From Diplonema papillatum (Eukaryota > Euglenozoa > Diplonemea > Diplonemida > Diplonemidae), in the NCBI GenBank assembly GCA_030068145.1, contig JAPJBO010000798.1:1-64000 (forward strand): a DNA stretch of 64,000 bases, read 5' to 3'. The stretch's first letter is position 1; each line of letters begins with the position of its first letter. The notes beneath the pieces are model-generated. The model searched no databases, was not told where the DNA came from, and worked only from the letters and a program-made list of their open reading frames with translations. Positions 7,297-54,755 of this stretch are shown here, piece after piece. The translations under genes and the position numbers were made by a program.

Positions 7297-10200
7297 GTCA
7301 TCACATCAACGCTAGCCAACGCTTCTCTTCCTTCCTGCCGGACTGCACACCGCAAAAAACACGCATCCTCACACGGTGTTCCTTTAGCACGGTGTGGAGA
7401 CATACACCCAAACCCGGGTCCAAAAACGGTAGAAAACAGCTGGCTTCGAGTCCTCTGTTTTAATTGTCACAGCTGGAGGGTGAGGAAAGAGTTTGTTCTC
7501 GAACTCATCCAACGGTACAAACTGGACATCCTCCTGCTGCAGGAAGTGTTGATACCACCCGAAGAGGTCGTAATCGTTCCAGGTTTCAAGGTTGAACGCC
7601 GTGACCGGACAATCAGGAGAAACGGAACTGCAAAACCGACGGTAGCAGGTGGGTTACTCACGCTCGTCCGTGATAATATAAAATTTGAGAGAAAACATGA
7701 TTTTCAGCTGGCAAATGTAAATGACCCAACAGAAAGATTGGATGTGGAAGTATTCTTACCTGATGGCTCGTCTCTCAGGGTTGTCAACTTGTACAAACCA
7801 CCCATAGTACGGTCCAACCCGGGAGAGGAGCGTATTGACTACTTTGATCCGACTCTATTGCCTTCCTCCTCAGCCATCATTGGGGGCGATGTGAACCTCC
7901 ATCATCCCTTGTGGGAAAACAGGGCTACCACCAACCATCCTAGTAATCGACTTGCACCAATTCTGTTTGAATGGATACTTCAATCTGAGTTGGCCGTCTT
8001 GAACGATCCCTCAATCTCTACGCGACCACAATCAAATACGTCACCCGACATTTTTCTTGCACCTATCGAGTGGGAGTCAGCCAACTGGAGGGTACTGAAG
8101 CGGTCCGGTGGCTCAGATCATCTTCCAATGCTTGTATCTCTTCCTTGTTTGTTTCCAAATGAACCTAAACACGTGAATGACTTTGCCTGGGGCAAAGCCG
8201 ACTGGGGACAGTACATGGCGGATGTTGACTGTCAGCAGCGGCGCCTCAAATCAATAAATGACACTACAACGCTGGCGAAACGGTTTACGAAGTCATTGAT
8301 CTCGACGAGAGATAAGTGCGTGCCACGTTGTGGTAAAAGACGGGGTAATACCTGGTTTACTGAGGCAGTCAAGGAGGCTATGCAAGAAAGAGACTTGCTA
8401 CGTGCTGAGATTATTCGCAACAAAGTAGTTGGAATTTCGTGTAATGACCATGAGAACTCTCTTCAAGCAACCCAAAGTAGAATTAATGGACTGATCGCTG
8501 AAGAAAAAACCAAAACACTGGCATCGAATACCTCGCGACTCTCTCGGATCTCCACCATCAGACAGGCCTATAAAGCGATACAGGTGAGCTCGGAGGTGAG
8601 GCCTGACTGTGTGATTCCGCCACTTATCGTACAAGGAGAGACTGTCTTTGATGACAGGAAGAAGGCTGACTTAATGGGGCAATACCTAGCGAACGTCAGT
8701 GAAGGGGAAGAACTGCCGAGTTATGACAGAGCTTGTCACACAACAACGCAGGATACCCCACTCACAATGTCGGAGCTAGAATGGGGCCTCGCAGACCTGA
8801 AACCAACGACAAGTAGCGGACCTGATGGCGTCAACAACCTAATGCTGTTGAACCTGGGTCTTGAAGCCAAAGAAACATTACTGCGCTTGTTCAACATGTC
8901 ATGGTGTAAGGCCGTGGTTCCACGAGACTGGAAACTGGCCCAAATGATGATGTTGAATAAACCAGGAAAGCCCCCGGAGGATATTGACTCATATAGGCCG
9001 ATCTCCCTAACCAGTTGCCTGGCGAAGCTCTTCGAACGAGTAATTCACGTGAGACTACGGCACGTCTTGCATGACAAATTACATGTTTCCCAGGCTGGCT
9101 TTCAAAAGGGTAGATCAGCCGAGGAGCAAATCGCAGCAGTCCACCTAGAATTAGAGCAAGCATTCAATAACAATGAACACTCTGTGCTCCTTCTCTTTGA
9201 CATAACCAAAGCTTTCGATACAATCAACAAAGCAAAACTCATGGACAAGCTGAGCAGCTTGGGTGTGAAGGGCAAGCTACATTCCTGGCTCCATGCATTC
9301 CTACGAGGCAGAAAAGCATTTGTAAATGTCAACGGTACGCATGGAAAACGGTTCAAGTTAAACAAAGGGGTACCACAGGGTACAGTACTTGCCCCGCCAC
9401 TTTTTTTGGTGTACATAGAGTCACTTGCAAGAGAACTTGAAGAAAAATTTCCAGGGCTGTTCTTCGCGTTATTTGCTGATGATCTTGCGGTCGTTTGCAG
9501 ACATAAGGATGTTGCACAGCTCAAAGAAATGGTCCAGATAGTCACTGACACCATTGAATCCTGGGCCACCAGGTTCGATCTTACTCTCTCAGCAACCAAG
9601 TCTCAATTAATCCACGTGCCGCCCACGTCGGAAAGTACAATCGAACACTTCCCAATTAGCCTGAAGTCAACCCTGAAATTGACCACCCTGGACAAATCAA
9701 TTTTGCGGGCCATTGGTCTCCTCCCGGCAGACCTCTTTGACGAAGAAACGCTGACCTTCAAACTATCACAAAAAGCACTCGAGCACCAACAACTTCACTC
9801 CTTGGATGGGTTGTTGATAACAGAATGCAACGGGTTCGAGGTTCATGATTATGATACCCTTGCACAGGTTATGCGAACCCAAGAAAGAATTCTATTAGTT
9901 GTGTCCAAATGCATTCCCAACGTCACTAGTGCAAGATACCTCGGTGTTATCATGGACAACTCTCTTTCTTTTGACCCCCATGTACAGACAATTAGAAAAC
10001 GCTTTTACTCTCGCTTAGCTGTTCTAAATGAGTTGAAGCCCCGGCTAGCAATGAATCATCAAGAAATCCTTAGAACTCTGTATCTCACGTATTCCCTCCC
10101 CGTCCTGACATATGGCCTGGCGATTTACGGACACTCGATCAGCGATAGTAACATGAGCCTGCTCAAGGCTGATCACAATAGAGCACTCAGGATCGTGTCC

Positions 10201-11541
10201 GGACTTCCCCAATCCACCCCTCTCCATGCACTGCACCTAGAGACACGGGTCCTTCCGTTCAATCTCATTGCTGACGTCAAGTGCGTTACCCTGGTAGAAA
10301 ACTTAAGGCGACAGAAAGATTCGCTGGCCAAACGACAGTGCGCCGCGCAACAATGGAACAAAGGAAAATTGCTGGCAAGAGCTCAATTGGTGCTGGAACA
10401 AGCAGGCCTCAACGGTGTGGCCCGACAAAGTCACATCACCGAACCGCTCACCCCTGAACAAATAGCGGCACCGTTAGCCAAGTTTACAACCAACATCCCA
10501 GGTGTTAAAAAATCAAATACACCGCTAGTCAACCGACAGATAACCGAATTATTCCTCCATCGGAATGGCCCGTATGACTTGTTGATATACACTGATGGTT
10601 CAAAAGCCCCCCTTGACTTGCACACTGGCTCAGCGTGTGTCATACATATCACCGGATTCGACCATACAAGGTCCATCAAACTCCCCACAACAATACTTAA
10701 AGGTCGTTTCACGTTACGACTATTTCGCCTCTCGGGGTCAACTTTTGCTGTAGGATGTAGCGGCGGTGCACATGCCTCGGTTTTTCGCACGGAAATGGTA
10801 GCCCAACTGCTGGCGACTGAGTTGCTCCCGTATTTCCTAGCACAGCTACCAAATCTAACCCACCCCAGGATAGCTATCTGTTCGGACTCGCAGTCAGTAC
10901 TACGGATTCTTGAAAAGGGTCTAAAAAGACAGTACGACAAAGCGTCCGAAATGATCTGGAAAAGGTGGCACTGCCTGCTCTCTAGAAACGCAACATTACA
11001 TATCGTGCACGTTCCCTCCCACTGCGGGATACAAGGCAACGAAGACGCCGACAAGATTGCTAAATTTGTACAAAAGAAGCCCCCTCACCCAGGGAACATC
11101 AAATTGGTGCCCATAGACCTCAACTCAGTCAAAGCACGGACCATCGAATCAGTTAGACGAACTTGGTACAGTAAAAGGCCGCAAGGCCATCACTACCGAG
11201 CCACCAACCAAAGCCTACCTGCCAAACTGCCCGGCAACCTCTCTCTCAAACAACGTACTTTTCTACTACAAATACGATGTGGGCATTCGAGCCTGAACAA
11301 AGAACACCTGTGCAGCAATGAAAACAGAAAACGGCATATCCGAGGCAGTACCTGCTGGCACTGCAAGGAAAAGCCAGAAAACCTACTAGAACACGTACTA
11401 ATTAACTGTACAGCAACAAAACCTACCCGTTCGATGTTCTTTCCCGAGAAACTGGGACTACCAGAACTATTTAAACCGGAAAACTGCGCAAAAACCATAC
11501 AAATGCTGCAGGAAACGGGAGACTTTGAATCTGAAGTGTAA
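7297..11541 (+). CDS. LINE element 2 ORF2: endonuclease-RT-RNase H polyprotein
   Basis: The frame continues directly from the ORF1 TGA to TAA at 11539-11541, 1414 codons, with no Met before the endonuclease. Order: a 2A-like motif (7393-7422); EEP endonuclease (LRVLCFNCHSW, DILLLQE, GGDVNLHHPLW, SPDIFLAP, SGGSDHLPMLV); RT with YRPISLTSCLAKLFERVI, LLLFDITKAFDTINK, GVPQGTVLAPPLFLVYIE and FALFADDLAVV (YxDD-type Asp pair near 9475); a thumb region ending in SARYLGVIMD; RNase H with IYTDGSK, RTEMVAQLLA, CSDSQSVLRI and HVPSHCGIQGNEDADK; and a C-terminal CWHC...HVLINC zinc knuckle. This is the layout of I/ingi-like LINEs with RNase H. All catalytic motifs are intact, so it may be recently active. 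Confidence 0.92.
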   Translation, partial: VITSTLANASLPSCRTAHRKKHASSHGVPLARCGDIHPNPGPKTVENSWLRVLCFNCHSWRVRKEFVLELIQRYKLDILLLQEVLIPPEEVVIVPGFKVERRDRTIRRNGTAKPTVAGGLLTLVRDNIKFERKHDFQLANVNDPTERLDVEVFLPDGSSLRVVNLYKPPIVRSNPGEERIDYFDPTLLPSSSAIIGGDVNLHHPLWENRATTNHPSNRLAPILFEWILQSELAVLNDPSISTRPQSNTSPDIFLAPIEWESANWRVLKRSGGSDHLPMLVSLPCLFPNEPKHVNDFAWGKADWGQYMADVDCQQRRLKSINDTTTLAKRFTKSLISTRDKCVPRCGKRRGNTWFTEAVKEAMQERDLLRAEIIRNKVVGISCNDHENSLQATQSRINGLIAEEKTKTLASNTSRLSRISTIRQAYKAIQVSSEVRPDCVIPPLIVQGETVFDDRKKADLMGQYLANVSEGEELPSYDRACHTTTQDTPLTMSELEWGLADLKPTTSSGPDGVNNLMLLNLGLEAKETLLRLFNMSWCKAVVPRDWKLAQMMMLNKPGKPPEDIDSYRPISLTSCLAKLFERVIHVRLRHVLHDKLHVSQAGFQKGRSAEEQIAAVHLELEQAFNNNEHSVLLLFDITKAFDTINKAKLMDKLSSLGVKGKLHSWLHAFLRGRKAFVNVNGTHGKRFKLNKGVPQGTVLAPPLFLVYIESLARELEEKFPGLFFALFADDLAVVCRHKDVAQLKEMVQIVTDTIESWATRFDLTLSATKSQLIHVPPTSESTIEHFPISLKSTLKLTTLDKSILRAIGLLPADLFDEETLTFKLSQKALEHQQLHSLDGLLITECNGFEVHDYDTLAQVMRTQERILLVVSKCIPNVTSARYLGVIMDNSLSFDPHVQTIRKRFYSRLAVLNELKPRLAMNHQEILRTLYLTYSLPVLTYGLAIYGHSISDSNMSLLKADHNRALRIVSGLPQSTPLHALHLETRVLPFNLIADVKCVTLVENLRRQKDSLAKRQCAAQQWNKGKLLARAQLVLEQAGLNGVARQSHITEPLTPEQIAAPLAKFTTNIPGVKKSNTPLVNRQITELFLHRNGPYDLLIYTDGSKAPLDLHTGSACVIHITGFDHTRSIKLPTTILKGRFTLRLFRLSGSTFAVGCSGGAHASVFRTEMVAQLLATELLPYFLAQLPNLTHPRIAICSDSQSVLRILEKGLKRQYDKASEMIWKRWHCLLSRNATLHIVHVPSHCGIQGNEDADKIAKFVQKKPPHPGNIKLVPIDLNSVKARTIESVRRTWYSKRPQGHHYRATNQSLPAKLPGNLSLKQRTFLLQIRCGHSSLNKEHLCSNENRKRHIRGSTCWHCKEKPENLLEHVLINCTATKPTRSMFFPEKLGLPELFKPENCAKTIQMLQETGDFESEV
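7393..7422 (+). other. 2A-like (ribosome-skipping) motif at start of element 2 ORF2
   Basis: The codons read C-GDIHPNPGP, in frame with ORF2 and 33 codons after the ORF1 TGA. 2A-like sequences end in NPGP, with peptide bond skipping between G and P. The classic DxExNPGP pattern has Glu where this has His. I recall GDIHPNPGP-type motifs in LINEs of other eukaryotes. If active it would free the endonuclease-RT from an ORF1-readthrough product. Confidence 0.7.
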
Positions 11542-12057: not shown

Positions 12058-15000
12058 TTACTCGAGATATCTCAAAACTAGCGAGGACCACCGTGCCGCT
12101 AACGGGTCGTCGCACAGGACCTTCACGCGTTTCGCCACGTGCCGGATCGTGTCTCTTCGTTTCTTTGCAAAGTCCGCGAGCAGTCCCTTCAGTTGTGGCG
12201 GGTCGGTGGGGTATGCGTGACGGATGTCGGACACTTCGTTGTGCGTCGCATCATCTGCGAGCAGGACGTGTTGCGCGTTGGCCAGCGCCGCGCACCGCTT
12301 GCAGGCGATCCGGGTGGCTCGCGGCATCACCGCTCGCCGGATAATCGCTTGCAAGAGGTCCACGGCGCCGGGCAGTGCTTCGAGGGAGCGGAGCGTACTC
12401 CCCTTCGTTGTCTCCGCCGACGCAAGTTCCCGTATGCTCCTCGTCGCCGTCTTTGTCCGGCTGTACTGCCACACGCGCTTCACGTACCGAATGGGGCTCT
12501 CCAGCTGCGGGAAGTCCTCTGCGGCGTAACAGCAAACAGCTCCTACCCCGTTCTTCCGATACAGGAGCTCAACGTCCAGAACCGGAAGTCTCTCCTGGAG
12601 GGCCCGCGTCGCCGCCTCATCTGCGCCGTTGATGTCGGTGTTGTCGGCGTGTCCCTTACCCCATCGGAGGCACTGCACATACTCGCCGACCACGCCTGCC
12701 ACGGGGTCACCGGGCTCCTTTCGGCGGATTCGCAGGATGGCCGCTTCGCTGTCGCTGTACCACGAAACCCTCTCGGGGGCGACATCCCACCGTCTCAGCA
12801 CGGTTGCCAACAGCATCATTGCCGCCAGTTCGGTCTCCGTGCTCGAGGTCACGGTTCCGCTTAGCAGGCAGCCGAAGGACATCGTTCCGAAATTGACTCC
12901 GGCGGACCCGCGCGATTCGTCCTCGAGAAAACCCCCATCGCTCGCCACCACAACATCATGCGTCAACAAGAATTCCCGGCCCAGCATCACGTCGATCTGC
13001 GAGAGTATGTCCTCTCCCACGGCTGTTTGTCGGGGGGGCCTTCGACGGAAGCCTGCTACAGGGAGGGCGTCCCTTTCTTCGTTGGGTCGGTGAGCCAGGT
13101 ACGCCCGCGTTCGTTGAAGTGCCGCGTAATGTTCCACGTTCGGGCACGCGAAGCCGTCCTTGCACCATGCAAATTCCTTTATCCCTCTACTGTGGCGATG
13201 CTTCGGGAAGAGACTTGCGTGAGAAGCTACCAGCTTGGGTGCTCTTGGGTCGAAGCAGGAGGATAGGCAGTGCATGGACAGGGTGGGCAGTACGTGGCTG
13301 CGGAAGAAGGCACACTTACGTCTTGTCGAGCGGTAGACGTGGGAGTTGGTGAAGTCTACCAGGCGTGCCAGCCTTTCCAAGTTCTTCGCGTCATTCTCGC
13401 ACCCACTCGTTCGTCTGTCCGCGTGCAGGCAGGCACCCAGCAGTTTTGCGCGGTTCACGGTCTCGCGGTGAGGTTCAGTGCTCCACACGAAGGGAGTCTT
13501 CGCCACTACAAGGATCTTGTCTTCAGCCAGCTCCAACCCTTTCGACGCCGACCACGATTGGAGCGCCCCAAAAGTAGCTGGGAGGCGTGACCTTGTTGTT
13601 CGGGCCACCAGATCATCGACGTACGCCCGGGTCTCTTCCCTCGGGGGGGGCTCGCAGGTGTACAGTACGAAGAGGAGTACGCTGAGGGGTGAGCCTTGGA
13701 GTACGCCTCGCCCCAAGCCGACCGGCGGGGTAAACCCGTCGTAGTGAACAATCGTCACCTCCTGGCCCTCGATTACCCTTGCTACTGTCTTCGCCCATTC
13801 GGGGCCAAGCAGCCTCTCTACTGTCTGTATCAGCCTTCCGTGCGGAATCGAGTCGAAGGCGGCCCGGACGTCTACCAGGAGCAGCAAGCGCTCGTCGTCT
13901 TCCTCAGAACCCATCTCTGATTCCAGCCACTCCCGTGCATGGAGGACCACCTGCGCCGCCCCGCTTTGCCTACCGCATCCGAACTGGAACTCGTGCATCA
14001 GGACCAATGACTGTACCAACGGTTTCATTTTCAGATACAATGCCGAGTGCTGCAGTTTTGCAAAGAGAGGCATTATTGCAATTGGCCGGTACCCCCTCGG
14101 ATCCGACGTTCGCATCGCCTTCCCCTTCCAGAATAAGAAAATCCAAGACACTCGCTGTCGCGCCGGTACGCCCTCACGAGTCCATCTGTTGAGCTCAGCT
14201 GTCGTTGACTCAAGAGTTCTCTCTGACATTGTTTTTAAAAACTTCGGTGAGAAGTCAGCTGTTCGAGCAGTGGACCGGATGACAGCTATCGCCGCGCTGA
14301 CGTCTTCGGCCGACAACGCAATCGGTACGGCGTCGCGGGGCAGGATTATCGGTGGGTGTAGGGCGTCAGATTGGTATTTGTTCCGGAGGAACGCCGTAAA
14401 GACGGCGGGATTCTCCAGCATCGGTGGCTGATAAGGTGATGACAGGTTTGGAGACTTGTGGTGTTGCCCGGCCGCGTCCAATTTCTTTCGGATCGACCGA
14501 ATCTCTGCATTTAGGGTCGACTTCAGTTGTGCGCCGGCGCTGCTTCGGAGTATAATTCGACGATATAGGGCATCCTGCAGCCTCGCCACCTTCGTGCTTC
14601 TGGGTCGAGGGGGTGGGCGAGCACCCGTTTCATCGAGGGCGTCGAGCATCTGGGAAAAGGTCGCTTGGTCGAGGGTTTGGCGCTTTGTGGGGTACACCAT
14701 GGCCGGAGGCCTCTTCAGGCTCTTGTCGAAGCGTAGGGACAGAACAGCATGGTCGCTTCCTCCGGTGAATCGAATGCTGCTCAAGCTCCATCGAGACCTT
14801 CTCGGCACGAAAGCTCTGTCCAGCGACGACGTGGCGTTCGACCTCGAAAAAGTTGTTCGCGACCGCACCAATTCCTGCAGATTCTCCCTCCGCATGCGGC
14901 GCTCCACCTGGGGCGTAGTTCGTGGGTTAAAGTCGCCGACAACCGCGAAGTCGGTCATGCAGTCCCGCGCCCGCTGCGCTATCCAGTCTCCGAGTCGGTC

Positions 15001-16569
15001 GGTCAGGGAATCGCGTTTGTGGCAAGGGACGTACACACTCACTACCCTTAGTGTCTCGCCCGCCACCTGCAGGTCTGCGCTGCACGCACCGTAACCGGTG
15101 TAGCACTGAGATACTGTAATCAGGGATTGCTTCTTGATGAGTATCGCCGTCCGGGCCAGGGGGTGCCCGTCCGCGTAGGGGCAAGTGCCCACCACCACGA
15201 CAGTCCATCCGGCACGGGTTGCGTATTCGCGGAAGATCGTGGGCTCGCGGCCAATCTCGTTCACCGCCAGGACATCGGCAGCCGGCAAGCGTGAGAAAAA
15301 TCTCTCTAAACACATCTTACAGGAGGCATTACACGACAGGAGGATCAAGTGCCTGTCGAGAGGGAGGAAACGGCGGGCTCTCAGGGGCGGAATGACTAGC
15401 GGCGGGTGCGCTTCTTGCGGTCGGAAGGAGTTGGTTGAAGCTGATATCGGGTGTGTTTGGGAGGAACTGACTGATGATTCGGGAGGTATGGAAAGGGAGG
15501 GATTGACTGATGCGGCTGATAAGCAGTTGTTGGGGTTGCTTGTCACTGACTCGTTCACCTTGCCCATCTTTCCAGCTCCACGCCCTTTCGAAGCCGCTTT
15601 GTCGTTGCTCTTTCCATTCACTTCCAGGGGCCTGCTTTCCTGTCCCTTCCCGCCCAGGAGTCCCTCGTCGGCTTCTTCCCCCGCTGAGCTGGCCTCGCTG
15701 CGACTTGCTGCTTGGGCATACGTTCCGGGGGACTGCACGGACTCGGCTCCAGCACCCACCATCACCCCGAGCCTTTCAAAACGTATGTCCCTGCCACCGA
15801 TCTTGATCTGCAGACTTTGTAAAAGCGCCTCCTCCTCGTCGTCCAATCCCTCCACCACAAATGTCGTTGTCGTCCTCGTCAGCCCGTACGCGGGAACCAG
15901 TTCGACGTCAGCTGTCACCCCTGCGTGGTTCAGAGCCAACTGCACCTCGTAGTCCGCCAGCGTCCTGCTGAGGCCAACAACCCCGTACTCCTCCCTTTGC
16001 CGTTCCCTGTAGGCCTCCCTGTCCCTTGCCGCCTGCTCTTTCGACTTCACGAACACTCCATCCCTTTTGACCGCAATGCCAGCGGCGTCCAACCTCTCAG
16101 CGAAGGCGCCAATCAGCCCCTCCGACTCCCGGTCGGCGTATACACGATACCCCGTGGCCGAGTAGCGCAGTATCGACGCCTTCATGCCGACCTTCTCCAT
16201 TGCCTCTATTAAGTCAGAAGGGGGGTTGGAAAAGGGGTCGTCTCTGGCGGTGCGCCTCTGAAAAGCTTCGAGTTCAATCCCCTGAGGGGGGGTGATGATC
16301 CACGCCGCTGGGTTGATCGAGAATCGGTGCTCCGCGGCGGCTCTCGTCAGCTGGAGCAAGTCACATTCGCCCTCCATCTCCAGCAGCTTGACTACATTAC
16401 CCTTGTAGTACCCGCCCGCACTGCGCACCTTCGACACCCGCGCAACCTGCCCGATGCTCACCATGACCTTCTTCACTTCGCTAACCTCGCCGCACAGTGA
16501 GTAAACTTTCTCCAACGCTGCATGCAGTTCGTCGTCCCCAATTAACAGCACTTCGCCGTCGCTTGGCAT
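12058..16569 (-). CDS. LINE element 3: single-ORF endonuclease-RT-RNase H retrotransposon protein
   Basis: 1503 codons from the first well-placed ATG (16567-16569, MPSDGEVLLIG) to TAA. The frame is open 40 codons further upstream, but that part is the A-tract and 3' end of element 4. Residues 1-300 are an ORF1-like region with a charged helix (REAYRERQREEYG). An EEP endonuclease follows: LILLSCNASC, LAVNEIG, VVGDFNPR, SSLDRAFVP, GGSDHAVLS. RT: YRPIAIMPLFAKL, LLLVDVRAAFDSIPH, GVLQGSPLSVLLFVLY, AYVDDLVART. RNase H: VVASDGGF, TETELAAMML, WYSDSEAAI, KGHADNTDINGADEA. Fusion of ORF1 and ORF2 functions in one frame contrasts with elements 1 and 2. No internal stop, so potentially intact. Confidence 0.9.
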   Translation of the reverse strand: MPSDGEVLLIGDDELHAALEKVYSLCGEVSEVKKVMVSIGQVARVSKVRSAGGYYKGNVVKLLEMEGECDLLQLTRAAAEHRFSINPAAWIITPPQGIELEAFQRRTARDDPFSNPPSDLIEAMEKVGMKASILRYSATGYRVYADRESEGLIGAFAERLDAAGIAVKRDGVFVKSKEQAARDREAYRERQREEYGVVGLSRTLADYEVQLALNHAGVTADVELVPAYGLTRTTTTFVVEGLDDEEEALLQSLQIKIGGRDIRFERLGVMVGAGAESVQSPGTYAQAASRSEASSAGEEADEGLLGGKGQESRPLEVNGKSNDKAASKGRGAGKMGKVNESVTSNPNNCLSAASVNPSLSIPPESSVSSSQTHPISASTNSFRPQEAHPPLVIPPLRARRFLPLDRHLILLSCNASCKMCLERFFSRLPAADVLAVNEIGREPTIFREYATRAGWTVVVVGTCPYADGHPLARTAILIKKQSLITVSQCYTGYGACSADLQVAGETLRVVSVYVPCHKRDSLTDRLGDWIAQRARDCMTDFAVVGDFNPRTTPQVERRMRRENLQELVRSRTTFSRSNATSSLDRAFVPRRSRWSLSSIRFTGGSDHAVLSLRFDKSLKRPPAMVYPTKRQTLDQATFSQMLDALDETGARPPPRPRSTKVARLQDALYRRIILRSSAGAQLKSTLNAEIRSIRKKLDAAGQHHKSPNLSSPYQPPMLENPAVFTAFLRNKYQSDALHPPIILPRDAVPIALSAEDVSAAIAVIRSTARTADFSPKFLKTMSERTLESTTAELNRWTREGVPARQRVSWIFLFWKGKAMRTSDPRGYRPIAIMPLFAKLQHSALYLKMKPLVQSLVLMHEFQFGCGRQSGAAQVVLHAREWLESEMGSEEDDERLLLLVDVRAAFDSIPHGRLIQTVERLLGPEWAKTVARVIEGQEVTIVHYDGFTPPVGLGRGVLQGSPLSVLLFVLYTCEPPPREETRAYVDDLVARTTRSRLPATFGALQSWSASKGLELAEDKILVVAKTPFVWSTEPHRETVNRAKLLGACLHADRRTSGCENDAKNLERLARLVDFTNSHVYRSTRRKCAFFRSHVLPTLSMHCLSSCFDPRAPKLVASHASLFPKHRHSRGIKEFAWCKDGFACPNVEHYAALQRTRAYLAHRPNEERDALPVAGFRRRPPRQTAVGEDILSQIDVMLGREFLLTHDVVVASDGGFLEDESRGSAGVNFGTMSFGCLLSGTVTSSTETELAAMMLLATVLRRWDVAPERVSWYSDSEAAILRIRRKEPGDPVAGVVGEYVQCLRWGKGHADNTDINGADEAATRALQERLPVLDVELLYRKNGVGAVCCYAAEDFPQLESPIRYVKRVWQYSRTKTATRSIRELASAETTKGSTLRSLEALPGAVDLLQAIIRRAVMPRATRIACKRCAALANAQHVLLADDATHNEVSDIRHAYPTDPPQLKGLLADFAKKRRDTIRHVAKRVKVLCDDPLAARWSSLVLRYLE

Positions 16570-16705
16570 TGTCTTTTTTTTATTTTTTTTTTGGAGCGCG
16601 GGACACTGTACAAGCCATGTTGGTACAGCGGGGCTGCCGGTATCCGGTTGCTTCCGGAGCGGGAGCCCAAAAAAATGCTTCTTCAGCACACAGTGAACGC
16701 CAGTC
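16570..16705 (-). other. Junction: element 4 3'UTR and A-tract directly abutting element 3
   Basis: On the minus strand the element 4 stop (TGA, 16706-16708) is followed by about 113 bp of UTR, then an A-rich tract (plus-strand T at 16573-16592 with one interruption), then GACATGCC-like sequence and the element 3 ATG within a few bases. Element 3 therefore has almost no 5'UTR of its own, or shares the junction with the tail of element 4. Confidence 0.65.
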
Positions 16706-32945: not shown

Positions 32946-33594
32946 TCATTGTAACTTCCATAAGTATCCCCGTTGGGACGGGTCCGACGGTCCGTTAGTC
33001 ATCAACGACATCGGGCGGGGGGAAAAAAAAAAAAAAAAAACAATCGTAGTTTAGGGGGGGAAAATGTTTCTTGGGTTTGAAGAGCGCGTGGTGCTTGCAC
33101 CAGCTATTTAACCGCGGATTTAGTGAAGGATTGTTCAGGAAACGGTCGCGGGGGGAAAACTTAGTTTAATGTTTAGGCAGAGTACTGCCTCGCATGCATG
33201 TTTGATGCTAGCATCAAGTCTTCGTCGAAGAAAGTGTAAAATAAAATAGGGGAAAGGGAAAAGGGTCGCAGGGAGTGTAAGACTCCGCAGGTAGGGTCTG
33301 GAACCTTGAGGGACTATTCCTCTGTATTCTTTTTTTCTTTTTTTCACCGCGGTGTTGTGAGCACCTCGTTCTTTGTCTCTGGTTTCGCTCTTGAACGCAT
33401 ACCAATCCAAAGTTAGAGCTCTTCAGTGGGTCCTTTGGACGGGGACTTTCGGTCCTGTTCCGGTGCTTTCACAACTTTCTGGTTCCAATGTTTATCGCAT
33501 CCTTCCTTCGTCAGATTAAAAAAAGGGGGTTCTGGTTTGGGTTGTGGCTCGTAACCAACCGCCACGGGGCACTGCTTCCACTGAGTGAAAGTGT

Positions 33595-36500
33595 TTATAT
33601 CTTCTCAAGGGAGACGATGTAACCGTTCGAAACGAACTTTCCGGCACATGCTTCCCATGAGAGCACTGATACTTGCTGGTCGTCATAACACACCCATTCG
33701 TCTGCTTCTTTCATAATGGTGTAATAGTGCCCAGCATGTACTTTTCCAGTGTGGATTATGAAACCCGTCACCATGTACGTGTCTTCGCCAATCCCAATGG
33801 TTGATTGGATTGGTGTGCGGGCTTTCACTTTTATCTCCTCGCCTGTCCTCTTCGACCGTTGGGCCCGTTTCAGTGCCACGTCCATCATATTTGGAAAGGC
33901 ATAGACCTCTTTCGAGGAGCCTACCGTCTTTTTTCGGCATGTTGTACAGTCGAGGTCGACATCGGCTGCTCTCTTGTTCTTTACTTTGTTTACAAGAGCT
34001 TCAACCGTCTCGGTGTAGGAGTTCTCCCTGTTTTTGAGCTCTACAAGGAGAAATGGTTCTAACACCGGCACCGCTGTCGAGGTCTCCTGACACACTTTAC
34101 AGGTGGTTCGCCGTGAGTATGTAACCATCGTTGGGTCATTGTTATCCCCCCTCACGCAGCTTCTCATCCATGTCAGCAGTTCGTGGGCATCACGGTGTTC
34201 GGAGTCGTTCTCAGTTGTGCCGAAAACGAGACTTCGAATTTCTGCCATCGAACCATGGATGTCACGGCCAGCATCAAAATCCGTGAAAAGTCGACGGATT
34301 TTCAACTGTTCTTCATCCGGACGCTCAATAGTTTCGAGTTGGTTCCGGAAGTTTCGTTTGCGTGCCAGAAATTGGACGCTGGCGGCAAAGAAGCACGTGT
34401 TGCGAACGTTGGTGATGCCGTTGCGGTTGCGTTTGGGAGAACCTGTTGGTTCGTTTGAGGGCGAGACAGTCGTTGTGGTGTTTTCGGGCTCGGGCGGGTT
34501 GGGCGTCTGATGTGGTGGGGAGGTGGGTCGGTTCGGCTGTCGGGTGTTGATGAACGGCTTCTCTTCGTTCGTTGGGCGTCCTTCGTCATAGGCTTTCCCA
34601 ACATAGTGGTAAAACTGTGTCAGCACCCGTGCGTCCAGTTCGTACTTGCCGTATGTCTGCACGACAAAAGTATCGAACGTGTGTCGCAGTTCACGTCCGG
34701 AGAACCCACGATCTCGCAACCGGTAATACACCTTCATGATCTCGACTTTGAGATCAGGCATGTTGTTGCAGATGCGGGCTGCTCGTATCAGGGCACCTTT
34801 GAATATCGAGGTTCCGGTGTTTCGCGGGACCGTCGACTCGGCATGCGTGTATTTGATGGGGTACCATGGAAACTCTTCACCCTTGTCCAGAACGGAGAGT
34901 CGGATGAAGTTGGCCTTGTTACCCCTCTCAACTCTAACGCGCATTCCCAAGAAGACTACGTCGTCAACGTCTTTCGACGTTTCCGAATATTCCATGCCGT
35001 AGATTGCTTCCGGTGGTGGTCGTGCACTCCAAGTCAGGAAGTCATCGATGAACCTGACGCTGTCGGCGTGGGCTCTGGCTTCTTCATGGCGTCCTTCCGT
35101 GATCAGGCTATCGATGTAAAGCTTTTCACACCAGTAGCAATACAGATTCGCCAGATCTGGGCTTGCGTTACCGCCCATTGGAATTCCAGTTACCTGCTGG
35201 TAACATTGACCACCGTTCGTCACAAACGTGTTGCCGACAATGAATTCGACCAATTCCCGGATCTCCTCGACGTTGTATGCTGTCGCGTCCATCGCGTCAG
35301 CATTGCTGAACTCGAACTGCTGCTTCGACCGTCGTGCCTTCAGGTCACAACCACGTTCCGCCTTCGCGTACTCGAATGCTTCCGACACAGCGAGCATGAC
35401 GTACTCTACAATTCGCTGTTGCGGAATCTTTGTGTACATTTCTTTGAAATCGAATGTACGTGGGACCTTCTGGCGTAGCCGTGCGTAGTTTGTCTTAATG
35501 TGAACGGCTACGCCGTCAATTGATTCGACGACGAAGAAGCGACGTATCCCCGTCTTTGCCCGAGACGCTTCGTCCTTGCCTTGCAGTGTGGCTAGAACCA
35601 GTTTTAGGATGCCCGATGTCTCTTGGTGGGCTGGTGTTGTTGAGGCGCGCGTCTTCGGTTGCTTCTTGTTGGGAGTTTTTTCAGCTTTTGCCTGCTGTTC
35701 GTCCGTTTTCTCCGTGTTTCCCTTCTCTGAAACGCCGGCAATGTACCGCATCCGAGGCTCGGGTTTGTGTAGCTTCGGAGTACCATATAGATATGGCAGG
35801 ATGTTGGAGTGGGTGAAGTTGTGGGACTTGTTGAAGGTTTGGTGTTGCTGGAGAATGTCTGCCATCGAGGTGTCAACATGTTTGTAGGCTGAGCTTTGGT
35901 GTAGCTCTTTTCGAATGAGTTCCTTGTACTTTTCCTTGCAGATGAAACCGAAATCGTGTGCAGTTTTGTCTACAGGAAGAATGACAAGGTGTTCTTGCAG
36001 TTTCTTCAGCGTCCGCAGGGCATCTCGGAGGTGCGGCTCGTCCGTGTGTGCGTTGAGCGTTCCAAGAACGGTGTCGAACTCTTCTGTCAGTGTTGCTGCA
36101 AAATGCGATTTCTCGCTCTCGCTTGACTTCCTAAAGTTATTGGTAACGAACTCTTCGACGTCGAACCGCATCGAATCGTAGAGTGACATAGGGCTGCTGG
36201 CTACTCGGTACTTTCGTCCCTTGCGGAAAAGTGACAAAAGGGCCTCGTCTGTCTTCAGGTCCGTTGCTAGCCCCAGAGCGTGTCCGTCGAGGTGACTAGT
36301 CTGTATGTGTTGTTTGCACGGACAGGTCGCCTCGGTGTTTGTCGGGTGGTGCGTCTCGTAGCTGACCTCGGTGAAGTTGCACAGGAGTGTCGCCAACGGT
36401 GGTTTCAGGCGGTTGCTCACCATGAGATTATCGAGAACCGCCGGGTTGGGGCATGCCTCGCGAATCCTTGTTCGAGAAAGGACACCAGCGATTGCCGTGC

Positions 36501-38019
36501 GGTCTTGTGCCGGGTGTTGGTGGGTCAGCTTGAAGTATCGGCGGGGAGGTGCTGCTTTCTTCTCGGTCCGGTTCCTGATGCGTTGACTGAGAAGTCGTTC
36601 GAGAGTTCTCACGTTGTCTGTTACGCTCTCGCCCTGTATGAAGGTTCTCAGCCAGGTGCGGAGGCGTAGGGCGCGGTTCGGGTGCCAAGTGGACAAGTCA
36701 TACATCCCCAACTGGTCAGGGGGAAGCCTGATGAGGTGGTCCAGTTGTTTCCGCAACCCAGAACAAAAGCCTGGCGAGGTGTCGATTTCGAGCTTGCCGT
36801 CCCGCATGCGGTGCCAGGTGTTGCCATCGCTGCGCCGTTTTCGGAGACGCTGTGGTGGGCGCTGTCGTTTCTTCTTTTTATGCGGCTTGTGGCCAACCTT
36901 TTCCCCTTGGCGTCGATTCGTCATGTTCAGGGGAGGGTTGAGCCACTTTATCCAGAAGTCCTCAATCGGTAGCGCTACCCGCGGGAAGTCTGCTGGTTGC
37001 GTGTAGAGTCGCTCCGGGACGTTCTGGATCGGGCATGCGTACAGTTTACGGCCTCGTTTGCGAAGTTGTTGTGCAACGCGGTTGCGCTTGGAGTTACGGT
37101 TCTCCCAGTGCTTGTTGTTACGCGTCTCGGCCGTCTTCGACGTCTGCCCAACGTAGAGGGCTGTGCCCCCTTCGTTCACGAGCACGTAGATGACACCTGT
37201 TCCGTCGTCAGCGACGTTCTTTGTGTCGATCCCGCACTTCGTTCGCCCGTCTGTTACCTTCTTACCGTTGCGCTTCCAAAAAAGCTGGATCGCATTTCGT
37301 CTTCGTTCTGCATGTCCGTCGTCGTTGTATGGATTGTTGCGGGTGTTGACGAAGGCGGCGAGGAAGCGGGTGTCTGACTTGGGCCGTTTTGTTTTTTGCC
37401 GATCTTTTTTCTCTTTTTTATGGGCGCGTTGTTCGTTTTTGGTTTTTTGTTTTTTTGGTTTTTTTGCCTCAGAGTCCTGTGGTCGTTGATCCGATTTTGT
37501 GCGGCTTTTTTGTGCTCTGAGGGTTTCTTTTTTTGGCCTCTTTTGTTCGCGCTCTTTTTGTCGGTTGGTGTGACCCGGGTGCTGTGCGGCGACCCGGGTC
37601 CTTTGTTTTGGGGCTGTTTGGGGTCTGGAAAGACCTTCGTCGCAGCTTTTCTCTTCCTTTCCTTCCGTTCGTTTCATTGGGAATCGACCAACAAGTTCAG
37701 GTCCTTCCTGGGAATGGCTTTGTCGGAAAATAAGACATTCGTCATCTGTCCGAATCGGAATTCCAACGATTGTCTTACCGGTTGTTCCCTCGAGTTCGTC
37801 ATCAAAGTAGTTCACTTTCATGTTATCGGACTCGGTGGTTGCGGACGATCCACTAAGCCGTCGTAGTATGTGCTTCTTAGGCACTTTCTGTGTCGGTTTC
37901 GGAACGGGGGGGGGGGGGGGGGGGTAGGTATAGAGCAGGCTATTATGGTGTGATCCAAACCAAGTTCTGCCGGGTTCCTGCCGGGTTTCTGCCGGGTTCT
38001 TACCGGGGGGGGTGTCCAT
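33595..38019 (-). CDS. Penelope-like retroelement polyprotein: GIY-YIG nuclease, RT, ubiquitin-specific protease
   Basis: 1474 codons, ATG to TAA, no internal stop. Residues 130-225 are very basic. Residues 275-367 form a GIY-YIG endonuclease (GVIYVL, LYVGQTSKT, catalytic Glu in IEDFWIKWLNPPLN). CPC at 566-568 with following His residues is the CxC motif of N-terminal-GIY-YIG (Chlamys-type) Penelope-like elements. RT motifs: YLYGTPKLHK (743), TFDFKEMYTKIP (855), GIPMGGNASPDLANLY (945), RFIDDFLTW (989). Residues 1201-1474 are a USP: GITNVRNTCFFAASVQFL with Cys1209, RDAHELL (1276), zinc-type CKVC and CTTC (1307, 1358), HAGHYYTI with His1431, and CYDDQQVS with Asp1446/1447. The protease triad appears complete. 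The element lies in an intron of the mosaic gene, same strand. Confidence 0.88.
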   Translation of the reverse strand: MDTPPGKNPAETRQEPGRTWFGSHHNSLLYTYPPPPPPVPKPTQKVPKKHILRRLSGSSATTESDNMKVNYFDDELEGTTGKTIVGIPIRTDDECLIFRQSHSQEGPELVGRFPMKRTEGKEEKSCDEGLSRPQTAPKQRTRVAAQHPGHTNRQKEREQKRPKKETLRAQKSRTKSDQRPQDSEAKKPKKQKTKNEQRAHKKEKKDRQKTKRPKSDTRFLAAFVNTRNNPYNDDGHAERRRNAIQLFWKRNGKKVTDGRTKCGIDTKNVADDGTGVIYVLVNEGGTALYVGQTSKTAETRNNKHWENRNSKRNRVAQQLRKRGRKLYACPIQNVPERLYTQPADFPRVALPIEDFWIKWLNPPLNMTNRRQGEKVGHKPHKKKKRQRPPQRLRKRRSDGNTWHRMRDGKLEIDTSPGFCSGLRKQLDHLIRLPPDQLGMYDLSTWHPNRALRLRTWLRTFIQGESVTDNVRTLERLLSQRIRNRTEKKAAPPRRYFKLTHQHPAQDRTAIAGVLSRTRIREACPNPAVLDNLMVSNRLKPPLATLLCNFTEVSYETHHPTNTEATCPCKQHIQTSHLDGHALGLATDLKTDEALLSLFRKGRKYRVASSPMSLYDSMRFDVEEFVTNNFRKSSESEKSHFAATLTEEFDTVLGTLNAHTDEPHLRDALRTLKKLQEHLVILPVDKTAHDFGFICKEKYKELIRKELHQSSAYKHVDTSMADILQQHQTFNKSHNFTHSNILPYLYGTPKLHKPEPRMRYIAGVSEKGNTEKTDEQQAKAEKTPNKKQPKTRASTTPAHQETSGILKLVLATLQGKDEASRAKTGIRRFFVVESIDGVAVHIKTNYARLRQKVPRTFDFKEMYTKIPQQRIVEYVMLAVSEAFEYAKAERGCDLKARRSKQQFEFSNADAMDATAYNVEEIRELVEFIVGNTFVTNGGQCYQQVTGIPMGGNASPDLANLYCYWCEKLYIDSLITEGRHEEARAHADSVRFIDDFLTWSARPPPEAIYGMEYSETSKDVDDVVFLGMRVRVERGNKANFIRLSVLDKGEEFPWYPIKYTHAESTVPRNTGTSIFKGALIRAARICNNMPDLKVEIMKVYYRLRDRGFSGRELRHTFDTFVVQTYGKYELDARVLTQFYHYVGKAYDEGRPTNEEKPFINTRQPNRPTSPPHQTPNPPEPENTTTTVSPSNEPTGSPKRNRNGITNVRNTCFFAASVQFLARKRNFRNQLETIERPDEEQLKIRRLFTDFDAGRDIHGSMAEIRSLVFGTTENDSEHRDAHELLTWMRSCVRGDNNDPTMVTYSRRTTCKVCQETSTAVPVLEPFLLVELKNRENSYTETVEALVNKVKNKRAADVDLDCTTCRKKTVGSSKEVYAFPNMMDVALKRAQRSKRTGEEIKVKARTPIQSTIGIGEDTYMVTGFIIHTGKVHAGHYYTIMKEADEWVCYDDQQVSVLSWEACAGKFVSNGYIVSLEKI
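33600..34422 (-). other. USP (deubiquitinase) domain at the C-terminus of the Penelope-like polyprotein
   Basis: About 274 residues, close to the minimal USP catalytic core. Cys box, His box and a two-CxxC zinc ribbon are in the family order. It is joined to the RT by a Pro/Thr/Asn-rich linker (residues ~1150-1198). It is in frame with the RT, with no stop, intron signal or frame change between them, so it is translated as part of the retroelement protein unless cleaved. Confidence 0.85.
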
Positions 38020-38612
38020 TTTTTATTTTTGGCGGCTTGCATCTCCCACCGAGTCGCTGCTAGCTCTTTCAGGCATTTGTCGACGCTTCACGCAGTACCT
38101 GCCGCGATATGGCAACAGAATAGTCTTCAAATCCCTGGATATGCAGTGCTGAGGTCGGGTGTCAATCACCGAGAACAGGAGAGCCGTGAGGGTTAAGTAG
38201 TGTATAGAAGCCTCCATAGATGCCCCCGGGTGGGTATATTGGGTAGTATACCAGGTACCCATCCCTTAAATCCCTCATGGGGGCATTTCTTAGGCCGGCG
38301 TGCTATTCTGGAGGTATCTGCAGAACCTCAACTGAAATGTGAACCGCATCCATCCAGCAGCTACAGGCGTGACAGAGTTGGCTTCCGTTCGGACGTCGTG
38401 AGCTGTCAGGCTCGGACGACAGTGACCTGGAGAACTTTGATATGGTTGCATGGCATGCTACCTGGTGCGACTTTCAAATGCACCCGCCGGTATCCTGGTA
38501 TATCCGGGCATCTATGTGATCTGAAGGAAAGGGAAACTAAGAACGATTTTCGGGAGATTTCATGTCGGAGCTTGCAAAAATCTGTAGCATAGCGGTTCTG
38601 GCTCACGCACCT
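38020..38612. other. Upstream flank of the Penelope-like element, nothing recognised
   Basis: No domain or repeat seen, apart from short TCTGCCGGGTT direct repeats near 37965-38010 that recur at 41570-41600. A G-run of 19 at 37904-37922 lies inside the 5' part of the coding frame. Confidence 0.4.
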
Positions 38613-39848
38613 GATGCTCCGGGATGCGGGTGCATCTCATTTTTGCGCCTTCGTCGTGTTTGTGCCCACAGCTTGTGTCGGGTCGTGTCGCATCAGAATT
38701 GCCAGAGTCATCACTAATGTCTGCGGTCACGCACCTGCTGCTCCGGAATGCGGGTGCATCGCACTTTTGGCACCTTCGTCGTGTTTGTGCCCACAGCTTG
38801 TGTCGAGTCGTGTCGCATCAGAATTGCCAGAGTCATCACTAATGTCTGCGGTCACGCACCTGCTGCTCCGGAATGCGGGTGCATCGCACTTTTGGCGCCT
38901 TCGTCGTGTTTGTGCCCACAGCTTGTGTCGAGTCGTGTCGCATCAGAATTGCCAGAGTCATCACTAATGTCTGCGGTCACGCACCTGCTGCTCCGGAATG
39001 CGGGTGCATCGCACTTTTGGCGCCTTCGTCGTGTTTGTGCCCACAGCTTGTGTCGGGTCGTGTCGCATCAGATTGCCAGAGTCATCACTAATGTCTGCGG
39101 TCACGCACCTGCTGCTCCGGAATGCGGGTGCATCGCACTTTTGGCACCTTCGTCGTGTTTGTGCCCACAGCTTGTGTCGAGTCGTGTCGCATCAGAATTG
39201 CCAGAGTCATCACTAATGTCTGCGGTCACGCACCTGCTGCTCCGGAATGCGGGTGCATCGCACTTTTGGCGCCTTCGTCGTGTTTGTGCCCACAGCTTGT
39301 GTCGGGTCGTGTCGCATCAGATGCCAGAGTCATCACTAATGTCTGCGGTCACGCACCTGCTGCTCCGGAATGCGGGTGCATCGCACTTTTGGCACCTTCG
39401 TCGTGTTTGTGCCCACAGCTTGTGTCGAGTCGTGTCGCATCAGATTGCCAGAGTCATCACTAATGTCTGCGGTCACGCACCTGCTGCTCCGGAATGCGGG
39501 TGCATCGCACTTTTGGCGCCTTCGTCGTGTTTGTGCCCACAGCTTGTGTCGAGTCGTGTCGCATCAGAATTGCCAGAGTCATCACTAATGTCTGCGGTCA
39601 CGCACCTGCTGCTCCGGAATGCGGGTGCATCGCACTTTTGGCGCCTTCGTCGTGTTTGTGCCCACAGCTTGTGTCGGGTCGTGTCGCATCAGAATTGCCA
39701 GAGTCATCACTAATGTCTGCGGTCACGCACCTGCTGCTCCGGAATGCGGGTGCATCGCACTTTTGGCACCTTCGTCGTGTTTGTGCCCACAGCTTGTGTC
39801 GAGTCGTGTCGCATCAGAATTGCCAGAGTCATCACTAATGTCTGCGGC
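38613..39848. repeat. Satellite array, 124-125 bp unit, ten copies
   Basis: GGTGCATCGCACTTTTGGC recurs at about 38630, 38754, 38879, 39004, 39128, 39252, 39376, 39500, 39625 and 39750. Copies are >95% identical by eye, with 1-bp length differences that shift frame, so it is not coding. Read on the minus strand (gene sense), each unit contains AGCAG|GTGCGTG, a 5' splice-site-like word. It lies in the intron between exons 43298-43581 and 30539-30664. Confidence 0.9.
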
Positions 39849-52486: not shown

Positions 52487-52766
52487 AATAGAGCATCTAT
52501 TTGGTATCGGAAAGTAGGTGCGAGATCAGGCAAACCTTGTGCGCTAGCTTCGTTTAACCGTGAATCTAATAATCAGGGCTTACCCCACATTCTCGCTTTC
52601 ATTTTATTTCCATTCTCCTCCTAATCATACACTACCCTCCGGGAAAAATGCCGGTACACACGGGTAGCACGCGCCGCCGGGCCGCACGGACCAGCCGTCG
52701 GCTGATGGATCCTGACTGGGCGGCGGCTGAGGAAGCTGCCGACAAGGCCACCCGGGAGTGGCGGGT

Positions 52767-54755
52767 ATGGAACCCTTGCGAGCCCGGGGAGTCGGCGGCC
52801 CCCCGTTCGCCGGCGGGAAAGGGGGAGAAAGCCGGTCGGAGCTGAAGACCGGCATGGAACGGTCGTCTGGGGACTGGTCCCCCCTGGCCGACTGCAGACT
52901 TGAAGGACCTGGCGGGAGTACGACGGAGGCTCTACTCCCGCCTCCGGCTGGCAACGCCGCACAACGCGAAGACCCGGGAAGCGCTTCCACGAATGCACCC
53001 GGGCACTCGGAATTAGCTCATCCTACCCTTTGCGACAGCCGTTTCCCGACACGACAGAAACAACCCTTGCCCGACGCCGGCTTCTCGCCTCGGCAGGTCA
53101 GGGGGTTGAAGTCGCGAAGGTCCAGGTTGCTCAGGGGGAGGAGGCTTTTCCTCCGGCTCCACCCCCATTTCTACGACCCTCCTACCGCAGTTCCTCTCGG
53201 GTACCTCCCACCAGAAACGAGAGGTCTCATTCCGGGCATCGGTGCCCCGAGATCTGCGAGGCCGCTAGACGTCACGGCAGTGCCGCCGATCGATCTCCGC
53301 AAGCTCCGGAGCCTCGCCGGCCCCGGGGCCCGCTTGCACGGCTTGCTTGACCTCCTAACGGACGGGCACTCCTTCCGACGGAAGTTGTTGGGCACTCCTC
53401 TCGTGCCGGGTCGGAAGAGCGACGCGTTTGCCCGCCATGCGCAGACGCTGGAAAGCGTTGGGTTTGTGGAGCGCGTCCCCCGTTCGGAGCCGCTGAAGTG
53501 CGTCCTTCCGGCTTTTGCTGTTGAAAAGGGCGAACAGCACTCGCGGGCCATCGTTGACGGCCGCCCGCTGAACGAGCTGATGGAGCCCCCGCCGAAGTTC
53601 AGCCTCTTGCGTGTCGACGAGGTCATCGCCAAGATGATGTCGAAGTCGTACGCAGTCGTCGTTGACCTGAAGTCCTACTTCTTCCAGTTCCCAGTAGGAC
53701 GGTCGACGTCAGCTTTCTTCGGGCTCCGCACAAGGAAGCTCGACGGGGGCGTGGCTCTGTATAGGTGGCGCCGGCTGACGATGGGCTGGTCTTTCTCGCC
53801 CGTGATTGCGCAGGACTCGGCGCTTGTCATCACGGAGCCTGCCGGGGACGATAAGATAGTCTGGTACGACGACTGGGCCCTCGTTGAAGACTGTCCGGAT
53901 GCGCTTCGCGCCGTGCGCGACCGAGTTTTGCGGCGTGCCCGCAAGGTGCGCATGACAGTCAACGACGAGAAGTCCGTCCTCGAGCCCAGCTCGAAACCAG
54001 TCGTCCTCGGGGTAGAATTCGACCTCGCGGCGAAGACGTACAGGCTGAAACAGGAGTGGGCGAGAAAAGCGCACCTGCTGTTTTGCTCAGCTGAGTCGGC
54101 ACAGATGACCGTGCGCGGGATCTGGAAGGTCGTCGGGACCGCCATCTGGGCGTGGACGGTGTGGGGCACGCCGCTTTGCAGAGTGAGCCCGGTGCTTGCG
54201 TGGATGGGGACACTGGCGCATCAGGTCCTAACAGGCACCCTGGGCTGGGAGTCGCTGGTTCGAGTGAGCGACGACGTCCTTCCTTTCCTTGCTGGGGTGA
54301 GGCGGCGTCTGTCGGGGAACCGGTGGGTCACGTTCGACATGCAGCAGCGGGATACCCTCGTCGAGGCATGGTCCGACGCCAGCATGCAGGGATGGGCCTG
54401 GCTAGTGGATTCCATGGCAATGTGGGGACCGTGGAGAGATATCCCGCAGCATATCTTCTTTGCCGAATTAACGGCGGCAAAGTTTGCTATTGCGTACGCG
54501 GCTTCGCGCTCTCCGCTATCGACAATAAGAATCTTTGTCGACAACTTGCCCGCCGTGAACTGTCTGAGGAATTGGAAGTCGAAGACCCAACTCGGGAACT
54601 TCATCCTCTGCCAGGTCCGCGACGTGTTGGAAGAACACCAATGTGTTCTCGAGACTGTGTGGGTTCCGACCGCTGAGCAATTAGCGGACGTATGGACACG
54701 AGACCCATACAGGCAAGGCATTCCGCCTCCTCGCGTCCCTTTCTGCATTGCGTGA
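52767..54755 (+). CDS. RT-RNase H protein of the split-direct-repeat element
   Basis: 662 codons from ATG 52767; the frame opens slightly earlier at a GTG. The first ~170 residues are basic and Pro/Arg-rich. RT: VVVDLKSYFFQFPV (motif A), FFGLRT, RRLTMGWSFSPVIAQDSAL (B), IVWYDDWALV (C), KPVVLGVEF. RNase H: VEAWSDASMQGWAW, FFAELTAAKFAI, IFVDNLPAVNCLR, TAEQLADVWTR. No protease, integrase or tyrosine recombinase is readable in or after it. A 65-codon frame (52648-52845) overlaps its start in another frame and may be a small upstream protein. Clade within RNase H-bearing RTs is not resolved. Confidence 0.85.
   Translation: MEPLRARGVGGPPFAGGKGGESRSELKTGMERSSGDWSPLADCRLEGPGGSTTEALLPPPAGNAAQREDPGSASTNAPGHSELAHPTLCDSRFPTRQKQPLPDAGFSPRQVRGLKSRRSRLLRGRRLFLRLHPHFYDPPTAVPLGYLPPETRGLIPGIGAPRSARPLDVTAVPPIDLRKLRSLAGPGARLHGLLDLLTDGHSFRRKLLGTPLVPGRKSDAFARHAQTLESVGFVERVPRSEPLKCVLPAFAVEKGEQHSRAIVDGRPLNELMEPPPKFSLLRVDEVIAKMMSKSYAVVVDLKSYFFQFPVGRSTSAFFGLRTRKLDGGVALYRWRRLTMGWSFSPVIAQDSALVITEPAGDDKIVWYDDWALVEDCPDALRAVRDRVLRRARKVRMTVNDEKSVLEPSSKPVVLGVEFDLAAKTYRLKQEWARKAHLLFCSAESAQMTVRGIWKVVGTAIWAWTVWGTPLCRVSPVLAWMGTLAHQVLTGTLGWESLVRVSDDVLPFLAGVRRRLSGNRWVTFDMQQRDTLVEAWSDASMQGWAWLVDSMAMWGPWRDIPQHIFFAELTAAKFAIAYAASRSPLSTIRIFVDNLPAVNCLRNWKSKTQLGNFILCQVRDVLEEHQCVLETVWVPTAEQLADVWTRDPYRQGIPPPRVPFCIA

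Follow-up and report, generated by a model that had tools for sequence, protein, structure and literature searches.

A 64,000-nucleotide stretch of the genome of the marine flagellate Diplonema papillatum (contig JAPJBO010000798.1 of assembly GCA_030068145.1, positions 1 to 64,000; hereafter the window) carries on its minus strand a Penelope-like retroelement whose protein ends in a ubiquitin-specific protease (USP) domain. Comparison of copies shows that the USP belongs to the mobile unit, staying in frame across subfamilies and distant families of the element with its predicted catalytic residues kept. We propose that this is a recently active Penelope-like element whose USP is active on ubiquitin and works in cis on the element's own protein or ribonucleoprotein (RNP), a reading to which, taken whole, we assign a probability of roughly 0.55.

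Domain architecture of the element

The first-pass annotation of this DNA described an uninterrupted 1474-codon frame, which is present at 33595-38019 on the minus strand with an ATG start, 1474 amino acids and no internal stops. The part of the frame that belongs to the element stands, and the first residues, 1 to about 38, do not: they come from host flank that happens to stay in frame, since other copies cease to match within a run of 19 Cs, 86 nt upstream of the Met67 ATG. The conserved start is Met67 (window position 37821), which gives a protein of 1408 amino acids and is kept in subfamilies A and C, described below, and in the subfamily B copy L013; in two other B copies, L014 and L015, the N-terminus differs and lacks the Met67 start motif. 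The features, with residues numbered along the 1474-codon frame, are as follows.

33149..37907, minus strand: element copy, 5'-truncated, with 86 nt kept upstream of the conserved ATG (aligned with 11 other subfamily copies); its 3' end is common to other copies, and its 5' border lies inside the C-run, uncertain by a few bases
37908..38019, minus strand: host flank in frame, residues 1 to ~37 of the open reading frame (ORF) first annotated; outside the element (copy alignment)
37906..37924, minus strand: C19 run at the 5' junction, the insertion site (copy alignment)
33595..37821, minus strand: element ORF, Met67 to TAA, 1408 amino acids, conserved start
36934..37197, minus strand: GIY-YIG endonuclease domain, residues 275-362 (Pfam PF01541, 5.7e-6)
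36316..36324, minus strand: CPC (CxC) motif, residues 566-568 (sequence; CPC also in families D and E)
34555..36219, minus strand: reverse transcriptase (RT), residues 601-1155 (motifs A/B/C; homologs; telomerase fold in the model of the relative P0028)
34420..34554, minus strand: proline/threonine-rich linker, residues 1156-1200, fast evolving (omega 0.28-0.61)
33598..34419, minus strand: USP domain, residues 1201-1474 (Pfam UCH, 3.9e-18; model; structure matches)
34393..34395, minus strand: predicted catalytic Cys1209 (Cys in 10 of 10 element USPs compared)
33727..33729, minus strand: predicted catalytic His1431 (His in 10 of 10)
33679..33681, minus strand: predicted catalytic Asp1447, with Asp1446 just before it (Asp in 9 of 10)
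33149..33594, minus strand: 3' untranslated region (UTR); other copies repeat its last ~387 nt, whole or in part, upstream of their ORF as a pseudo-long terminal repeat (pseudo-LTR)

The domains originally claimed for this protein are all found. In Pfam, the GIY-YIG nuclease scores 27 bits against a cut-off of 22.6, and the UCH search that had been proposed as a check on the C-terminus gives 66.4 bits against a cut-off of 23.9, over residues 1201-1457. The claimed CxC motif is the CPC listed above, and the RT is recognised by eye from the motifs FDFKEMY (856-862), GIPMGGN (945-951) and FIDD (990-993); the Pfam RVT_1 match is marginal (E 0.1 at residues 915-999, below cut-off). Motifs A and B are separated by 82 residues, the interval in which Penelope-like elements with an N-terminal endonuclease carry an insertion-in-fingers domain.

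The USP has the expected Cys1209, His1431 and Asp1446/1447, a zinc ribbon of two CxxC motifs (1307-1310 and 1358-1361) and the oxyanion Asn, and thus the UCH domain and active-site residues of a C19 protease. Its model is confident (pLDDT 84.4), and the best 50 Foldseek and best 50 VIA matches listed are all USPs, with 15-22% identity to the solved USP structures (VIA). The Cys, His and Asp boxes and the FIDD of the RT are kept in all 32 element loci fetched, which comprise 30 from the genome copy search and one each of families D and E. Together, fold, residues and selection make it likely that the domain is an enzyme that removes ubiquitin. A domain working on a ubiquitin-like modifier (SUMO, NEDD8 or ISG15-like), or only binding ubiquitin, would be in keeping with the first Foldseek row, USP18 with ISG15 (6.5e-18), and with the damaged active sites of the relatives P0038 and P0030; however, USP21 with ubiquitin follows closely at 1.1e-17 and VIA ranks USP12 and USP46 first, and we consider this alternative unlikely.

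We also considered the earlier suggestion that the USP cleaves the element's own polyprotein, which the single long frame and the fast-evolving stretch that links RT to USP would suit. USPs, however, cut after ubiquitin, and Pfam scans of element proteins at E <= 1 detected no ubiquitin-like family, so that processing of this kind is disfavoured. Nor would replacement by Josephin or OTU-like folds, as relatives appear to show, be expected of a sequence-specific processing protease, and we regard this role as improbable.

Copies and anatomy of the mobile unit

The assembly that holds the window (271 Mb, 2910 contigs) was searched in six frames; of 4406 candidate places 32 were scored, and the copy counts given here are therefore lower bounds. 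The 48 matches listed consist of 32 long ones and 16 short N-terminal pieces. Every long match runs to residue 1473 or 1474, all but one of them without a stop (L013 has a single TAG), and none ends before the linker, at about residue 1150, where other copies would be expected to stop if a functionless USP exon of a host gene had joined the element by chance at this locus. The host does have USP genes of its own, to which 14 of 15 fetched UCH loci are assigned (the other, L045, groups with families D and E). Against such an accident, RT and USP are fused in each of the 32 long copies that were scored, as well as in families D and E and in the proteins P0014, P0019, P0023 and P0038, with a USP omega well below 1; the USP is thus part of the element, and chance fusion, to which we leave only a vanishing probability, is ruled out by the 32 long copies.

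At least 12 subfamily A copies, that of the window included, share the same frame, open from residue 36 on. With 0-3 nt of difference across 4224 nt, these long copies point to very recent movement of a recently active element. The remaining long matches fall into subfamilies B and C, whose RTs are 87% and 78% identical to that of A. A 41-base piece of the 3' end occurs at 709 places in the genome at up to three mismatches (none for the backward control); copies that lack their 5' part, or solo ends, probably account for most of these.

Measured from the first stop-codon base, ~449 nt of 3' sequence are common to 11 of 12 copies, which then diverge; the shared sequence of L007 ends 16-17 nt earlier. 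The 5' ends are ragged: compared with L002, most copies stop near -1430 from the ATG, L007 at -1138, L010 at -804 and the window copy at -86, and L005 and L011 continue 5' into a neighbouring copy. Target-primed reverse transcription leaves just such a fixed 3' end and ragged 5' end. In 10 of the 12 copies (not in L010 or the window copy), all or part of the 3' UTR is repeated upstream of the ATG as a pseudo-LTR, and head-to-tail arrays occur on contigs C510 (at least three copies, unit 5726 bp) and C2819 (at least two copies, unit 5850 bp). This anatomy, together with what is known of such elements, points to target-primed reverse transcription with use of tandem templates. Seven of 10 copies, the two behind another copy in an array being left out, have a run of at least seven Cs at their 5' junction; this count was made by eye with no control, and in four of the copies five Cs may be the element's own. 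An Rfam scan of the window and five element loci gave no match at gathering score, and thus no recognisable hammerhead ribozyme, though a divergent hammerhead motif could escape it.

Two further families, selection and the origin of the USP

A UCH search of the genome, in which 149 of 935 candidates were scored, lists groups of matches with equal scores (43 at 85.3 bits, 11 at 85.9 and 41 at 76.5), which suggests multi-copy families. Families D and E are each known in full from one locus, one of the 43 and one of the 41, with frames of 1562 and 1585 amino acids that contain GIY-YIG, CPC, RT and UCH in the same order as in A. The GIY-YIG of family E is just below the Pfam cut-off (22.4 against 22.6), and both families have an extra C-terminal C2H2-like finger, seen by eye. 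Identity to A is 35% (D) and 34% (E) in the RT and 21% (D) and 24% (E) in the USP. The D. papillatum protein P0010 matches the family E query along its full length at 100% identity.

The comparison of dN/dS across copies that had been suggested was made with the Nei-Gojobori method, per domain, in seven pairs. Omega of the USP is 0.09-0.23 (A-B 0.09; A-C 0.15 and 0.11; B-C 0.13 and 0.11; L016-L018, both C, 0.23; D-E 0.14), compared with 0.05-0.12 in the RT and 0.28-0.61 in the linker between them, and on these estimates the USP is under purifying selection between subfamilies. In a separate observation, residues 67-240 of L002 and L016/L018 have a dS of 0.48 and 0.42, far below that of the other domains (>1), a pattern that an exchange of the 5' part between subfamilies would give.

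A tree of USP domains places 10 element USPs on one side of a branch and 14 host USPs on the other with support 81/84, or 87/83 when the long row P0038 is removed. The element USPs share with host and human USPs (USP12, USP46, USP21, USP18) the fold, the Cys-His-Asp residues and the zinc ribbon, and differ from them in this separation and in their low identity to the solved structures. A single capture of the USP is compatible with the tree, which allows rather than proves it.

Relatives and the domain after the reverse transcriptase

Three protein searches gave 7, 35 and 30 matches, 56 proteins altogether, and all 7 in the first search come from D. papillatum. RT and USP are joined in P0014, P0019, P0023 and P0038, whose records are not named D. 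papillatum (P0014 could still be Diplonema); P0019, a EukProt transcript with the label Rhum, which we take to be Rhynchopus humris, matches UCH at 2.5e-21. RT sequences were cut from 35 rows, made up of 5 loci and 30 of the 56 proteins; the other 26 proteins are 22 named D. papillatum and P0051, P0055, P0056 and P0057. The RT envelope of P0018 was trimmed by hand, and P0039 is partial.

Seventeen of these rows have a long stretch after the RT and 18 end within 2-29 amino acids. Among the long rows, nine have a USP, two a Josephin domain (P0028 and P0029) and one a domain that is OTU-like (P0025); P0030 is related to the Josephin pair but has no catalytic Cys region, and in the other four (P0018, P0026, P0027 and P0039) no protease was identified in the stretch after the RT. 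P0026 looks Ulp1-like by eye, from a motif; Pfam gives nothing relevant there, and it is not counted. Pfam scans of 15 of the 18 short-ending elements found no deubiquitinase family in any. A quick RT tree built from 33 rows, the partial P0023 and P0039 being left out, joins the 15 long rows in one branch with a Shimodaira-Hasegawa-like approximate likelihood ratio (SH-aLRT) support of 99 and no bootstrap; three rows were flagged as long branches and ten for odd composition.

The Josephin domain of P0028 scores 29.2 bits on the excised piece (Pfam cut-off 26, 9.9e-7) and 24.4 bits on the whole protein, and that of P0029 scores 21.4 bits (2.4e-4), below cut-off. The OTU match of P0025 reaches 19.5 bits against a cut-off of 23.3 (E 0.0014), over positions 2-128 of 128, and the same region also matches Otubain C65 (0.0048); we call it OTU-like only. 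If these assignments are right, both domains would need captures of their own, since they are other folds.

Four further observations concern the relatives. P0038, from an ENA contig, has several C2H2-like fingers, by eye, between its RT and a USP in which the catalytic Asp is replaced. P0054, a GIY-YIG and RT protein found by the Penelope-like profile, is labelled Candidatus Omnitrophica and may be contamination or a bacterial holder. Thirteen pattern matches in viral contigs include no relative. The public Diplonema models P0005, P0006, P0007, P0008 and P0016 depart from the element within the USP at closely similar places (profile position 106-122) and then enter unrelated sequence, some of it apparently host genes, P0008 nearly ending there; the shared exit is perhaps a cryptic splice donor, or perhaps an artefact of annotation.

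Assignment to the Penelope-like elements

The original identification of a Penelope-like element with an N-terminal GIY-YIG is supported by the nuclease domain, the CPC motif and the RT that starts at residue 601, and by the presence of the nuclease in the same ORF, the pseudo-LTRs and the head-to-tail copies. Kinship of the RT with telomerase is seen through the model of P0028, a relative on the same RT branch, for which telomerases take the first 10 places in Foldseek and the first 17 in VIA, with group II introns, R2 and LINE-1 ranked below them. The window RT itself, used as a sequence profile against the PDB, retrieved no telomerase and only a CART-CAPP RT at 0.057; in NCBIfam its nearest model is a group II intron RT at 5.8e-4, far below cut-off.

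Given the N-terminal GIY-YIG and the CxC motif, we assign the element by its sequence layout to the N-terminal-endonuclease (Naiad/Chlamys) type, without claiming membership in the Chlamys clade itself. The Chlamys clade proper has an endonuclease without the CCHH motif, and this motif is absent here as well, with one Cys only in residues 241-274 by eye. Chlamys and Naiad elements are reported to have an N-terminal GIY-YIG, a CxC motif, a telomerase-related RT, pseudo-LTRs and tandem copies, and are also said to have no hammerhead ribozyme, in which features the Diplonema element is like them; they are said to insert at microsatellites too, of which the C-runs at its 5' junctions may be a counterpart. 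It is unlike them in the USP after the RT, where relatives have Josephin or OTU-like domains.

A proposed role for the USP in cis

We suggest that the USP, if active on ubiquitin as predicted, acts in cis by stripping ubiquitin from the protein or RNP of the element itself, and perhaps from chromatin or repair factors at the target, and that the complex would thereby survive long enough for copying into the cut site. Relatives seem to fill the same slot with unrelated deubiquitinase folds, and this would make ubiquitin removal, rather than a side role specific to one fold, the likely reason for retention. Such fold exchange is the strongest argument for ubiquitin as such, though a vulnerable one, since the Josephin and OTU-like domains are modestly supported. 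We see even odds for a broader proposition, namely that in one branch of telomerase-related retroelements a C-terminal deubiquitinase slot has been filled at different times by at least three unrelated folds (USP, Josephin, OTU-like and perhaps Ulp1-like) and that ubiquitin removal is required there against a conserved host defence.

Several observations weigh against these proposals. The Josephin region of P0028 is unsupported by structure, the AlphaFold model being poor there (block means ~31-48); PDB sequence searches with this region returned chance-like matches only, and the VIA rows of P0028, which include no Josephin, are uninformative. The OTU region of P0025 has no relevant PDB sequence match. 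P0038 lacks the catalytic Asp, P0019 the oxyanion Asn and P0030 the catalytic Cys region, and some lineages may use the domain for binding only. In the selection estimates, USP dS is saturated (>1) in six of seven pairs, and in the sole unsaturated pair, L016-L018 (USP dS 0.24), the USP omega of 0.23 exceeds the 0.12 of the RT. Among 11 near-identical C copies (two of another length being left out), the varying codons of the USP are 4 nonsynonymous and 1 synonymous, next to 5 and 2 in the RT plus linker and 6 and 2 before the RT, counts too few to judge; recent selection is not established, since these counts fit drift after insertion.

The main rival to protection in cis is an action of the USP on host proteins of chromatin or DNA repair where the element inserts (ubiquitinated histones or repair clamps, for example), which would aid repair or access after the nuclease cut. 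Bao and colleagues (PMC2836005) propose a similar role for the OTU and Ulp1 domains of Ginger1 transposases, and the SAGA module Ubp8 on nucleosomes is among the Foldseek matches of the USP, though so are many other USPs. We hold this explanation to be possible and rather doubtful.

Relation to known systems

Ubiquitin-type proteases on mobile elements are already known from DNA transposons. As described in the paper by Bao and colleagues, Ginger1 transposons carry a C-terminal OTU or Ulp1 domain, and a Trichomonas vaginalis protein, XP_001314237.1, combines Transposase_11 with Peptidase C19; control of transposons by ubiquitin was suggested there from the OTU and Ulp1 domains of DNA transposases (PMC2836005). 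Ginger1 resembles the Diplonema element in having a cysteine protease for ubiquitin or SUMO C-terminal to the mobility enzyme and alternate folds in one slot, and differs in having a DDE transposase, a DNA intermediate and OTU or Ulp1 rather than USP or Josephin. The Trichomonas protein, compared by its description only, shares a USP-type domain, but on a DNA transposase and in no retroelement. Searches of open-access literature, outside which the main paper on the clade lies, turned up no Penelope-like element with a USP. In the main text of the Diplonema genome paper (PMC10161547) the words 'Penelope' and 'ubiquitin' each occur 0 times. Within the literature searched, what appears to be new is the USP on a Penelope-like retroelement.

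Other features of the window

Ten 125-bp tandem units lie just upstream of the element and outside it (38603-39847), and a large satellite with periods of ~49/90/229 bp extends from 56545 to the window end at 64000. Another retroelement, with an AP-type endonuclease, RT (1.1e-37) and RNase H in one 1353-amino-acid frame, lies at 7480-11541 on the plus strand, and two further frames with RT domains (1.3e-13 and 1.8e-9) lie at 12058-16689 on the minus strand and 52758-54755 on the plus strand.

Implications

The D. papillatum proteins P0003, P0009 and P0010, named 'ubiquitin carboxyl-terminal hydrolase 26' or 'putative ... 16', are explained as pieces of mobile elements. With a USP of its own, intact copies that are numerous and recent, and selection between subfamilies, this retroelement makes the proposed role testable by one point mutation. 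If the slot has indeed been refilled by unrelated deubiquitinases, it would be natural evidence of ubiquitin as a barrier to Penelope-like retrotransposition. Repeated capture, if true, would make ubiquitin removal a required replication step against a host defence that ubiquitinates the retroelement RNP, and these elements would then mark that ubiquitin-based defence in protists.
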